Of a DNA stretch of 40,565 bases, positions 6,489-10,003 are shown one piece after another. Under the pieces are notes generated by a model that saw only the letters and a program-made list of their open reading frames with translations, had not been told where the DNA came from and did no database searches. Position numbers and translations under genes: made by a program. Location of the stretch: NCBI GenBank assembly GCA_945874455.1, contig CAMCHO010000020.1:1-40565 (forward strand), given 5' to 3'. The stretch is from Opitutus sp. GAS368 (lineage in GTDB: Bacteria > Verrucomicrobiota > Verrucomicrobiia > Opitutales > Opitutaceae). Within the stretch, counting starts at the first letter, position 1. Each line of letters opens with the position of its first letter.

Positions 6489-8018
6489 TTACCGGGCAGG
6501 TGTGGCGGCGACGAAATTAGCGGCGTCGTCTGTGCTGCCGGTGCCAGAGTATTTGGCGAACTGCGGATACGGGAAAAGAGGGCGAGTACGCAGCACCTTG
6601 CCGTCGTTGTCCTTCACCTGACCGAGGAGCTGGTCGGGTGCCATGCCCTCTTCCACCCAGCGGACGAGCGCAGCCTGCGTGCCGCTCGGCGTCGGCCCCG
6701 CGCCACGGAAACCGTGATCGACGCCAGGCACGAGAAACAGGCGCGCAAACTCCGCTGTCTTCTCCGCGCCACCCATGCGCTGCTGCACGCGTTCATAATA
6801 CTCGATCGTGCTTTGCGGCGGGATCAACTGGTCGGCGAGGCCGTGCGTCATGATCAGCTTCCCGCCGCGATTGCGGAAGCGAGTGAGGTCGGGATCGTCG
6901 GCACTGAAGACAGGGCCGAACTGTTCGGCCGACTGGCTGAAGAACAACTCGAACTCGTCGCGCTGCAGCGTGCGGCTGTCGTAGCTTGGGCTCTGCGCGA
7001 GAAAAAATTTCACCCACTCGAACGCGATGCCGAACGGCTTGCCGGTGAGCGGCGTGCCCTCGGTGCCCGCGACGGCAAAGAGGTTCGTGCCTCGCGTGTA
7101 ACCATGCCAGAGACGCTGGCCGTCGCGCGACCGCGCGCCGTCCCAAATCTGCCGCAGCACAGCCGCATCGGCGTCGGTGAACGTCTCAGGACCGACCCTC
7201 ATTCCAACGAGCACCTGCGGATCCCACGTAGCACGGATCGGATCGTCAATCACGCCGTCTGTCACGCCATCGGCGGCATCGCCCGCTGCGACTGCGGCGG
7301 TGGTGGCGGCGTCGAGTTTGGCTTTGGAAACGTAGTGGTTCGCCTCCTGCATCACGGCCTGCGCCCACAAACTGCCCGGCACCATGCGAGCCCAATTGAC
7401 CGCGGGACAACCGGAGAAAATGCCGTCATAGTCATCAGGATACCGCTGCGCTTCCATCAAGCCCTGGCGCCCGCCGGTGGAGCTGCCGATAAAATAGGAG
7501 TAGCGCGGAGACTTGCCGTAAAACGCCGTCGCGAGCGCCTTGCCGACGACGGTCATCTCGTGAATGCCGAGGTAGGCGTTATCGCGGATTTCCTGCCAGT
7601 TGAGCCGACCGTTGGCGTGGAGGGCGAACGCGCCGCTACCGCCCTCGTGGCCGGTGTCGGTCGCGGCGGTGGCAAACCCCTGGGCGACCGGACCCCGAAG
7701 GCTATTGGCGCTGCCGCCGTTAAAACCACCACCGCCGTTGCCCATGAATCGGCCGTTCCAGTTCTGCAACGGGAGGGCGACCCAGACGGTCACGCGGTCG
7801 GTCGCGGGCGGGTGCGTCACCACGGCGGTGATACGCACGGAGCCCTCGGCCTCGTTGACGACGATGGACGTGAGGGTGGTATGCGGGAGGAGGACCTTCC
7901 GCAGATCGTCCGGTGTGCGCACCGGCACGATATCCGGATAGAGTGACACCGGACGCTGGGCGAGCGCCGGGCTCGTGAGCAGCAGAGAAGCGAAAAAGCA
8001 GAGGAGCGGGGTTTTCAT
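6489..8018 (-). CDS. Secreted tannase/feruloyl-esterase-family protein
   Basis: Probably an exported carboxylic-ester hydrolase acting on aromatic esters such as feruloyl or galloyl groups. The ATG at 8018 gives 509 residues with a clear Sec signal peptide (about 1-20, ending SPALA). The alpha/beta-hydrolase core has the oxyanion region GRFMGNGGGGFNGG, the nucleophile elbow GSSTGGRQG with Ser180, a probable catalytic Asp396 (THGLADQLIPP) and His435 (PGVDHGF). In the fungal members of the family the serine follows a Cys and the histidine precedes a Cys, and the two form a disulfide. Here these positions are Ser179 and Gly436, and the mature protein has only one cysteine (C204). The gene is downstream of a sulfatase on the same strand with a 198-base gap. 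Family is clear; substrate is not. Confidence 0.85.
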   Translation of the reverse strand: MKTPLLCFFASLLLTSPALAQRPVSLYPDIVPVRTPDDLRKVLLPHTTLTSIVVNEAEGSVRITAVVTHPPATDRVTVWVALPLQNWNGRFMGNGGGGFNGGSANSLRGPVAQGFATAATDTGHEGGSGAFALHANGRLNWQEIRDNAYLGIHEMTVVGKALATAFYGKSPRYSYFIGSSTGGRQGLMEAQRYPDDYDGIFSGCPAVNWARMVPGSLWAQAVMQEANHYVSKAKLDAATTAAVAAGDAADGVTDGVIDDPIRATWDPQVLVGMRVGPETFTDADAAVLRQIWDGARSRDGQRLWHGYTRGTNLFAVAGTEGTPLTGKPFGIAFEWVKFFLAQSPSYDSRTLQRDEFELFFSQSAEQFGPVFSADDPDLTRFRNRGGKLIMTHGLADQLIPPQSTIEYYERVQQRMGGAEKTAEFARLFLVPGVDHGFRGAGPTPSGTQAALVRWVEEGMAPDQLLGQVKDNDGKVLRTRPLFPYPQFAKYSGTGSTDDAANFVAATPAR

Positions 8019-8216
8019 AAGTAAACATTCGACGGAGCGAATCGTGCGCTCGCGGTCATGCGAGCCCTGCGGCCAGCCCGTGCAGAGCATTTAACGGAAG
8101 CGGAAAATGAGGTGGCTCCTTCGGTTCGTTGATGACCCTCGGGCGTTTGTGCACACCGGCGAAGAGCGTGCGGAGCAGCGGATGTAACGGGAAGTGAAGT
8201 CCGTGATTGAGCAGCC

Positions 8217-9788
8217 TCACGGGAAATCTTTCAGCCAAGCAGTCTGCGGCCAGTCCGTGCCGACAGTGGCAGGCTGCGGGGTGCCCGGGGTGCTGCGGCC
8301 TCGCTCGATGTCGGCGCGCAGGAGGCGGCCGAGGCGTTGGACGATTTCGGGGTGCGCGCTGGCGACGTTGGTGGTTTCGGCCGGATCGGCGGATAGATCG
8401 TAGAGTTGGAACGGTGGGAGGGTGGCGAGATCCGTACGCGGGGTCTGGAGCCATTGGCTGGGGGCCGGCGTGGGGGAACTCCAGCCGCCGGAACCCGGCC
8501 AGAGGAGGAGTTTCCAACGGCCATCACGGATCGCGAAACGACCCTCGGCAGAGTGGCTGACGAGGGAGGTGCGGACGGGCGCTGTCACGGGCGAGACGCC
8601 CGGGCCACTCGGCATTGCGCCGCCGCCGCGCAGTAGCGGGAGAAAACTGATGCTGTCTTCGGCGGCGGTGGCGGCGATCTGGGTGTTAAGGATTTCGGCG
8701 CAGGTGGCGAAGAGGTCGAGTTGCTCGACGAGGGCGTGGGTCGTCGTGCCGGCTTTGATAGTCGCGGGCCAATGCGCGATGAACGGCACGCGGTGGCCAC
8801 CTTCGAAGAGATCTGATTTGTACCCGCGAAAGCCGGCGCTCGCATCGTGCTTGAATTTCGCGTGGGCAGGGACGTTGGCGGCGGGGGCGAAGCCGTTATC
8901 CGACGTAAAAATGATGAGAGTGTTTTTCGCGAGGCCGTGTTTCTCAAGGGCGGCGAGGAGGAGGCCGACGTCGGCGTCGACTTGGGTGACGAAGTCGCCG
9001 TAGGACGTGGTGTGAGTTTTTCCCGCAAACTCGCGCGTCGGCAGAATCGGCGTGTGTGGTGCGGCGAGTGGGAGGTAGAGAAAGAAGGGCTTGCCGTCGC
9101 GGGCGGCGGCGCGTTCAGCAAAGAACGCGAGGGACTTTTCGATGAGACGGGGCTGCACGTCTTCCATCTTAAAATCGGGCCCGATCGGGCCGCCGCGCCA
9201 CAGTTTGGGCACAGGGCTGTCGGCGATGGTAGCCGTGGGCACGGCGGTGGCGCGATCGTTGGCCAGCCACACGTACGGCGGCATATCGAGGGATGCGCTG
9301 ATGCCGAAGAAGCGGTCGAAGCCATAGGCGAGCGGGCCGTTGGCGAAGGGTTGGGAGAAATCGACGTTTTCGAGTTGAGTGCCCGTGCGCGTCCAATCGA
9401 GGCCAAGGTGCCATTTGCCGAAGACGGCGGTGGTGTAGCCGTGTTCGCGGAGGAAGCTCGCGACAGTGGGACGGTGCGCCTCGATGAGCGGTGGGTGGTA
9501 ACCTTGCAGCACGCCCTGTTTCAGACGTCCACGCCATGCATAGCGGCCGGTGAGGAGCGCGTAGCGGGCGGGAGTACAGAGGGAGGAAGCGGAGTGGGCG
9601 TCCGTGAAACGCAGGCCTCCACGCGCGAGGCGGTCGAGGTGCGGCGTTCGCCAGGCGCTTTGGGCATTGTAGCACGAGACGTCGCCGATGCCGAGGTCGT
9701 CGGCAAGGATGTAGACGATGTTTGGCGGCGGAGTCGCGGCCCGGGCGGCGAACGCGATAAGCAGGGCCCCAACGGCAGCGAGGATCAC
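8217..9788 (-). CDS. Exported sulfatase, type I (Cys-type formylglycine)
   Basis: Hydrolyses a sulfate ester, probably in the periplasm. The active-site motif CTPAR (C71-R75) is the Cys-type sulfatase signature, in which the cysteine is converted to formylglycine. Other family marks are the metal-binding pair D30-D31 in YILADDLG, GKWHLGLDW, APHTPILPT and IIFTSDNGF. The start is uncertain. GTG 9788 begins directly at a signal peptide (VILAAVGALLIAFAARA); ATG 9893 adds 35 residues and would place a strong palindrome inside the coding region, so I prefer 9788. Length is 523 residues, normal for S1 sulfatases. About residues 393-403 (GPGVSPV area) are encoded by a palindromic repeat element not expected in the family. 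No maturase gene is in the window. Confidence 0.9.
   Translation of the reverse strand: MILAAVGALLIAFAARAATPPPNIVYILADDLGIGDVSCYNAQSAWRTPHLDRLARGGLRFTDAHSASSLCTPARYALLTGRYAWRGRLKQGVLQGYHPPLIEAHRPTVASFLREHGYTTAVFGKWHLGLDWTRTGTQLENVDFSQPFANGPLAYGFDRFFGISASLDMPPYVWLANDRATAVPTATIADSPVPKLWRGGPIGPDFKMEDVQPRLIEKSLAFFAERAAARDGKPFFLYLPLAAPHTPILPTREFAGKTHTTSYGDFVTQVDADVGLLLAALEKHGLAKNTLIIFTSDNGFAPAANVPAHAKFKHDASAGFRGYKSDLFEGGHRVPFIAHWPATIKAGTTTHALVEQLDLFATCAEILNTQIAATAAEDSISFLPLLRGGGAMPSGPGVSPVTAPVRTSLVSHSAEGRFAIRDGRWKLLLWPGSGGWSSPTPAPSQWLQTPRTDLATLPPFQLYDLSADPAETTNVASAHPEIVQRLGRLLRADIERGRSTPGTPQPATVGTDWPQTAWLKDFP
8581..8611 (+). repeat. HGRDARAT-type palindromic element inside the sulfatase gene
   Basis: The core is CGGGCG-AGA-CGCCCG (8588-8602), a 6-bp perfect stem with a 3-base loop. 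One + strand frame reads CHGRDARATRH across it. I recognise HGRDARAT as a string that recurs in spurious translations from verrucomicrobial and related genomes, pointing to a dispersed DNA repeat. In the sulfatase frame on the - strand it encodes part of a Gly/Pro-rich loop, with the frame kept. Confidence 0.55.
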
Positions 9789-9830
9789 CCGGTGACATCG
9801 TCTGCCGAACCGCCCGATTTTTTCATAGGG

Positions 9831-9853
9831 AGTGTCACGTATTACGTGACACT
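9831..9853 (-). promoter_or_regulatory. 23-bp palindrome, candidate operator of the sulfatase gene
   Basis: Arms AGTGTCACGTA (9831-9841) and TACGTGACACT (9843-9853) are perfect 11-bp reverse complements around a single T. This is the size and symmetry of a dimeric repressor or activator site. It ends about 43 bases upstream of the GTG at 9788. A further ACGTGACA copy lies at 9879-9886, 35 bases from the right arm's ACGTGACA. The cognate regulator is not identifiable here. Confidence 0.5.
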
Positions 9854-10003
9854 TGATTTCGAGTATTTTTTGAGAAAAACGTGACAGGGTCATGGATGGA
9901 GTAGGGATGTCATTGGAGGGGCGTCGGATCTCTCGGTATGTTGCCAAAAATACGCTCGGATCAGAAAAAGCCGAGCGCGCGGGTCAGCGCGAAAACGGGG
10001 CGG

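Follow-up and report, generated by a model that had tools for sequence, protein, structure and literature searches.

A 23-bp hairpin inside a sulfatase gene of the window, the 40,565-nt stretch of DNA from Opitutus sp. GAS368 analyzed here, is best explained as a GTGG-tagged REP, a non-autonomous mobile element inserted in the ancestor of three Opitutaceae species. We assign this reading, in which a RAYT (REP-associated HUH tyrosine transposase) would have moved the hairpin and the gene would have kept it as a tolerated addition, a probability of about 0.88. The features concerned are the following.

8586-8608, minus strand: GTGG-tagged REP copy of 23 bp, GTGGCCCGGGCGTCTCGCCCGTG, an imperfect palindrome with a TCT loop.
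8588-8602, strand not assigned: perfect 6-bp stem with a 3-nt loop, CGGGCG AGA CGCCCG on the plus strand.
8574-8624, minus strand: 51-nt segment with the REP, flanked by the conserved anchors CGCGGC and CGCACC; the insert-free L026 has 21 nt here.
8217-9947, minus strand: sulfatase gene (PF00884 Sulfatase, E=1.7e-55), 576 aa when counted from the earliest possible start.

The window copy, GTGGCCCGGGCGTCTCGCCCGTG, differs by one mismatch from the family consensus GTGGCACGGGCGTCTCGCCCGTG (22/23 bases match). An alignment of copies gave the consensus layout GTGGCACGGGCG TCT CGCCCGTG, in which a GTGG tag precedes a hairpin of 8-bp stem and 3-nt loop, with scarcely any conserved base in the flanks beyond the 23 bp. 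The tag, also present in the copy consensus, lies at 8608-8605 on the minus strand of the window. An A-to-C change in the window copy leaves the outer two pairs of the 8-bp consensus stem open, which is why an earlier note on this DNA, made from the letters alone, saw a stem of 6 bp. That perfect stem with its AGA loop is indeed there, as is the plus-strand frame CHGRDARATRH (through 8583-8615; read by eye, with the HGRDARA part given by six-frame translation of the 23-mer). The repeat falls within the 8581-8611 that the note had proposed, but the unit is the 23 bp at 8586-8608. Predicted folding of the window copy as single-stranded DNA gave -7.4 kcal/mol (z -2.9), a value equalled by 2 of 200 shuffles. 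All six frames of its 23 bp are free of stop codons; in one sense frame, an A directly after the element would complete a TGA. An Rfam search of window positions 8000-10000 found no family reaching its gathering score.

The host genome (333 contigs, 5.07 Mb) has 13 matches to the 23-mer at up to 3 mismatches, all of them inexact, so the further host copies for which the note had suggested a search do exist. The same search gave 30 copies in G003, 22 in G008, 22 in the genome of L172 and 295 in G011, which we take to be an Opitutus-terrae-like genome; the reversed-pattern control gave 0 in each of these genomes, and a chance palindrome was ruled out by these controls. At up to 2 mismatches the 23-mer was present in 55 of 252 family genomes (control, 0), among them 7 of the 9 genomes of the host genus. 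With shorter or longer patterns, the 15-mer core at up to 1 mismatch gave 19 matches versus 1 control match, the exact 17-mer occurred only twice in the host genome, and the window 27-mer at up to 3 mismatches matched only itself there; within the 40-kb window alone, the 17-mer at up to 3 mismatches gave 2 matches versus 0.82 expected, which is not significant. Copies were often paired in inverted orientation at distances of some tens of bases, and stem variants preserved the pairing (CATGGG...CCCATG; GGGCA...TGCCC).

These properties are those of GTAG/GTRG-tagged REPs: an unpaired GTAG-like tetranucleotide (GTGG) at the end of the palindrome; a length within 20-40 bp, with a stem within 6-13 bp and a short loop (here 23 bp, 8 bp in the consensus, and 3 nt); dispersal at high copy number (295 in G011, the 13 of the host being low for a REP family); and a mostly extragenic location, often as inverted dimers (39 of 230 deduplicated clusters lay inside an apparent gene, as judged on sampled loci by a coding-score rule). 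The note's description of a dispersed REP-type repeat was therefore borne out by the GTGG tag, the hairpin, the head-to-head and tail-to-tail pairs, and presence or absence at an orthologous site. Solitary REPs 3' of genes were in sense orientation in 27 cases and antisense in 1, and those 5' of genes were antisense in 10 and sense in 2; where coding sequence lay on one side only, the GTGG end nearly always faced that gene. The GTGGCCCGGG variant of the sulfatase REP, perhaps a subfamily, was also found at G003:C17:1982-2004 (L091) and at G005:C624:2603-2625 (L415), the latter in frame between two asparaginase domains.

In the sulfatase gene, the segment between the anchors is 30 bp (10 codons) longer than in L026 (51 versus 21 nt). 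The insert was carried by the host, G008 (L167) and G003 (L168), three species that were the only carriers among 21 aligned rows (host included) and that are identical over the 23 bp; the nearest insert-free relatives, G006, G004, G007 and G001, are congeneric with the host. The flanks of the insert have diverged, so its exact ends cannot be set, and the insert-free relatives are so far diverged (dS 0.64 to L169) that exact ends and target bases are unreadable. Counted in the homologue alignment, 52 residues separate the two anchors in the carriers, 39-44 in 91 other rows and 62 in L172. For this count 80 further loci from named genomes were added, a frame could be called for 98 of 102, and one row, L206, aligned wrongly; the 91 short-loop rows, which range from Opitutaceae to Paenibacillus over several phyla, include pairs that are one genome under two names. 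The solved sulfatases 7oze and 6s20 also show a gap at the insert in sequence alignments. The residues are thus, as the note had asked to be checked, an insertion missing from close homologues, and distant genera have the short loop too.

In L172 (JACMRG010000256.1), a more distant member of the Opitutaceae, the same sulfatase loop is occupied by two REPs in tandem at a spacing of 30 bp. On a quick maximum-likelihood tree (L206, L041 and L038 left out, together with the duplicates L024 and L025) the carriers and L172 need two changes, and strongly supported branches force two, so that the loop was most likely struck twice. To judge from the aligned sequences, the insert is a derived in-frame insertion and REPs were most likely gained independently in two lineages.

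The REP lies in a variable loop and encodes sulfatase residues 447-454, SGPGVSPV, between LPLLRGG and RTSLVSHSAEG. This is the Gly/Pro-rich loop that the note had recognized there, although it had placed it at about residues 390-405; the numbering given here counts from the start of the longest frame. The gene also appears intact, as had been claimed: its frame is open, the formylglycine-type motif CTPAR (residues 124-128) is kept and purifying constraint continues, perhaps a little relaxed, with dN/dS values of 0.28-0.36 among insert carriers compared with 0.15 when the host is paired with a relative that lacks the insert. Nine residues are invariant in 31 aligned sulfatase rows (D83, D84, C124, K178, H180, H298, D350, N351 and K377), and these are presumably active-site residues. 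The AlphaFold model has a mean pLDDT of 82.8, its best PDB matches being S1_15-type sulfatases, and pLDDT falls below 50 at the N-terminus (1-49, 66-70) and in the insert, where 444-457 is the sole such stretch beyond residue 70; the REP-coded loop is accordingly predicted by the model to be disordered. About 50 residues of the longest frame precede a signal-peptide-like helix (47-70 in the model), and the true start probably lies downstream of the listed TTG. A phage search with the sulfatase returned 28 records, all below 60% identity and with no bearing on the insert.

We propose that the three carriers, close relatives within the Opitutaceae, share a REP that entered the sulfatase gene of their common ancestor; a RAYT would presumably have excised the hairpin as single-stranded DNA, along with a few neighbouring bases, and inserted it there. 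Because the net gain was 30 bp, the frame was kept. The insert would have persisted because it brings no stop in any frame and because the loop would tolerate the small Gly/Pro stretch (consensus GTGV[S/P]PV) that the REP encodes when so oriented and read in this frame; copies in less tolerable frames or in structured parts would mostly have been purged by selection. The note's idea that such a repeat may generate new protein loops holds insofar as extra residues are tolerated; a benefit or function of the loop would go beyond that.

Two alternatives would dispense with a mobile insertion. That the loop is ancestral and was lost by the other sulfatases could draw on L172, a second and more distant lineage that is also long at this place, but the short loop in 91 homologue rows of several phyla, the need on the tree for one gain and about six losses versus two gains (a hand count), and the different arrangement in L172 (two tandem REPs of other variants) make it extremely improbable. 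Hardly less so is an origin in place by replication slippage or template switching, the likeness to a REP being accidental: the region is GC-rich, and the self-only match of the window 27-mer in the host genome at up to 3 mismatches would fit such an origin, but 22 of 23 bases agree with a dispersed family whose control count is 0 in 252 genomes, the GTGG tag is rightly placed, and the same family appears in the same loop of an independent lineage.

The remaining alternatives concern how the REP came in and what it does now. It might have been copied by recombination or gene conversion from another REP rather than transposed by a RAYT, as could be argued from the failure to find in the host a RAYT flanked by this REP and from the GTGGCCCGGG variant at a second place in G003 (C17:1982, L091). 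Conserved homology, however, ends at 23 bp, a very small target for recombination; the family does contain RAYTs with such REPs at their flanks; and the part of PMC8266576 used here describes TnpAREP of other bacteria cutting and joining single-stranded REPs in vitro; we therefore regard this route as unlikely. Co-option of the loop for substrate access, partner binding or control by an mRNA hairpin is improbable as well, since the insert is predicted to be disordered and since the identity of the 23 bp in the three carriers, which would speak for it, is weak evidence when carrier dS is just 0.18-0.26.

Transposition by a RAYT, as preferred here, is consistent with RAYTs flanked by this repeat class elsewhere in the family. 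The flanking REPs have 1 mismatch to the window-repeat consensus on both sides in G113, and 2-5 mismatches in G233, G013, G129, G032 and G131; the G113 case would tie the repeat class to a RAYT and so account for how it could move. For the host, RAYT-driven movement is inferred: 0 of its 4 Y1_Tnp loci were flanked by a GTGG-REP, and its copies are degenerate (0/13 exact), so that transposition of the family may have ceased in this genome. Three scans of Y1_Tnp loci for an adjacent REP, at up to 6 or up to 5 mismatches, gave four isolated matches. Of these, three carried 5-6 mismatches, and the remaining one, which has 3 mismatches and lies ~1 kb from a Y1_Tnp in G011 (L294), may be chance, given 295 copies per 6 Mb. 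The link between RAYT and REP surfaced only from weak Y1_Tnp matches with very long open frames.

The reading frames of in-gene copies were counted in 291 REP clusters with flanks, deduplicated to 230, from G000, G002, G003, G005 and G008 (host genus), G011, G272, G146, G233 and a few loci of G243 and G250 (ten loci were assigned to one or other of these two by list order only), with part of the REP copies of each genome entering the count. Coding frames rest on a codon score over the 210 bp to either side of each REP instead of a gene finder, and a REP with one match at up to 3 mismatches within 130 bp was termed solitary; L272, the second sulfatase, was so scored though a neighbour appears at up to 4 mismatches, and the peptides of L446, L469, L407 and L317 suggest extra degenerate neighbours. 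Two in-frame copies lie in other genes of the host.

L104, G000:C22:20139: host methionine synthase with an in-frame REP between the B12-binding and activation domains.
L086, G000:C1:23026: host DUF1549/DUF1553 protein with an in-frame REP between its two domains.

By these frame calls, solitary in-gene REPs appear mostly biased to one sense frame that adds a short Gly/Pro stretch. Nineteen of 23 were read in the sense frame xGT GGC ACG GGC GTC TCG CCC GTG, that is GTGV(S/P)PV (binomial P about 7e-12 against an expectation of 1/6, counting both members of a probably orthologous pair), and among sense copies the proportion was 19/20 (P about 1e-8 at 1/3). As L086 and L447 look like one orthologous insertion and were left unmerged, 18/22 is the safer count; at a stricter threshold of 0.2 it was 13/15. 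Arg-containing frames (HGRDARA, VARASRP, WHGRLAR, RARRPCH) accounted for 2 of the 23, and the other 2 read TGETPVP-like peptides. Of all 65 in-gene REPs, dimers included, the favoured frame took 39, two antisense frames took 11 and 10, and the three frames left over shared 5; in G011, G146 and G233, more than one frame is used in dimers and clusters. The favoured frame was found in 11/11 copies of the host genus (three genomes, first count; 13/14 with two more genomes) and in 8/17 of G011 (first count). Pfam supported the called frame in 20 of 21 scanned solitary in-gene loci, with none for L331 (sulfatases L078 and L272 apart). Two loci of G011 were odd: the called frame of L395 holds a stop in its peptide, and the REPs of L384 lie at the very end of the frame. 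A bias of this kind offers a simple, countable test of insertions kept by selection.

Certain loops were struck repeatedly. In a PF03190 protein, the stretch between EDADS and EGAFYVW holds REP peptides in three genera (G008, L102; G146, L482; G233, L501), with eight in-frame REPs of alternating orientation in G233. The linker of isochorismate synthase was struck by REPs in at least 10 genomes, of which G116, G106, G136 and G146 have REPs there and no transposase. Other genomes have an entire RAYT open in frame within this enzyme.

L432 584-3052 (G233:C2:275583-278051), minus strand: isochorismate synthase with an in-frame RAYT (PF00425, E=2.7e-76; TIGR00543 above cut-off).
L512 849-3248; L513 1017-3326, minus strand; L533; L534; L536: further in-frame RAYT loci in isochorismate synthase.

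The G233 frame, 823 residues long, runs through the first part of isochorismate synthase, a REP cluster, the RAYT, a second REP cluster and the chorismate-binding domain. Its RAYT was matched by NF047646 (E=2e-20) at 73.1 bits, below the cut-off of 80, and by PF01797 at 25.4, above the cut-off of 23; NF047646 likewise scored just below its cut-off inside isochorismate synthase of G013 (74.1) and G129 (78.7). The same layout, at the same linker, stands open in G013, G129, G032 and G131, and in G113 it is open to the contig edge. Across the best 30 loci examined, isochorismate synthases with an uninterrupted in-frame RAYT come from at least 6 of the 252 genomes of the family, in six genera; among loci examined from those genera, linkers are plain in G231, G235 and G238, and hold REPs without a RAYT in G106, G116 and G136.

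Three long frames were set aside. The RAYTs of G243 (L516) and G146 (L517) have no REP of the GTGG class at up to 4 mismatches and may be chance long frames; L515 953-3184 (G128:C1:2077252-2079483), a 744-residue frame with a RAYT and then a creatininase-like domain, also has none and may be a chance long frame or involve another REP class. These three give no support to the isochorismate synthase case.

Stop-free hairpins, the frame SGTGV(S/P)PV, the recurrent loops and a transposase in frame with REP-coded linkers on both sides together hint that the Opitutaceae REP/RAYT might live partly as translated DNA, its unit shaped for read-through as a protein insert, like an intein without splicing. 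We offer this tentatively, at a little under even odds. The RAYT within isochorismate synthase makes it directly testable whether REP systems are adapted to translation. A few literature searches returned nothing relevant on RAYT with isochorismate synthase, on RAYT in frame or as a fusion, or on the peptide GTGVPPV.

Comparable repeats have been described. The portion of Di Nocera et al. 2013 (PMC3733652) drawn on here presents the GTAG-20 repeats of O. terrae as tagged short palindromes, in most of which the tag is mutated to GTGG, within a class that forms dimers, has stems mostly of 6-9 bp and in many families has 2-3 bases in the loop; it credits O. terrae with the highest number of intragenic GTAG repeats and names loops and linkers as REP-tolerant places. 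In our data, a GTGG-REP lies inside a UvrA-like frame of G011 (L380). To judge from the description of that family, the window REP likely belongs to GTAG-20. The Group 3 TnpAREP/REP system REPtron Sm of Stenotrophomonas maltophilia, as given in the portion of PMC8266576 used, has a 16-nt perfect palindrome split by 3 nt directly behind the tag, which corresponds to 8 + 3 + 8, but the tag is GTAG there and GTGG here. Rickettsia palindromic elements (RPE) resemble the present case by description, as palindromic repeats in frame in protein genes (PMC3733652, in part), but they belong to another lineage, and the same source puts the intragenic R. conorii RPE-4/6 in the CGTC, not the GTAG, superfamily and reports no associated transposase found for CGTC repeats.

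Since tagged REPs, RAYTs and intragenic REPs were already described, the sulfatase insert is not new in kind. It offers a clear-cut example, set against insert-free congeners, of a mobile hairpin that lengthens an enzyme loop while the gene survives, and the second, independent hit on the same loop repeats it. The portion of PMC3733652 drawn on does not contain the sulfatase insert, the frame bias or a RAYT inside isochorismate synthase, and neither frame bias nor an in-frame RAYT is stated in that portion, in the corresponding portion of PMC8266576 or in what a limited literature search returned. Judged on sequence comparisons, what would go beyond print is the frame bias, the same loops struck in several genera, and the in-frame RAYT in isochorismate synthase.

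The host has a RAYT of its own at L527 1292-2215 (G000:C166; NF047646, E=5e-25, above cut-off), with repeated GSAGVPAG/DVGAPR peptides on either side of its frame; these apparently represent a different REP class that is also read in frame.
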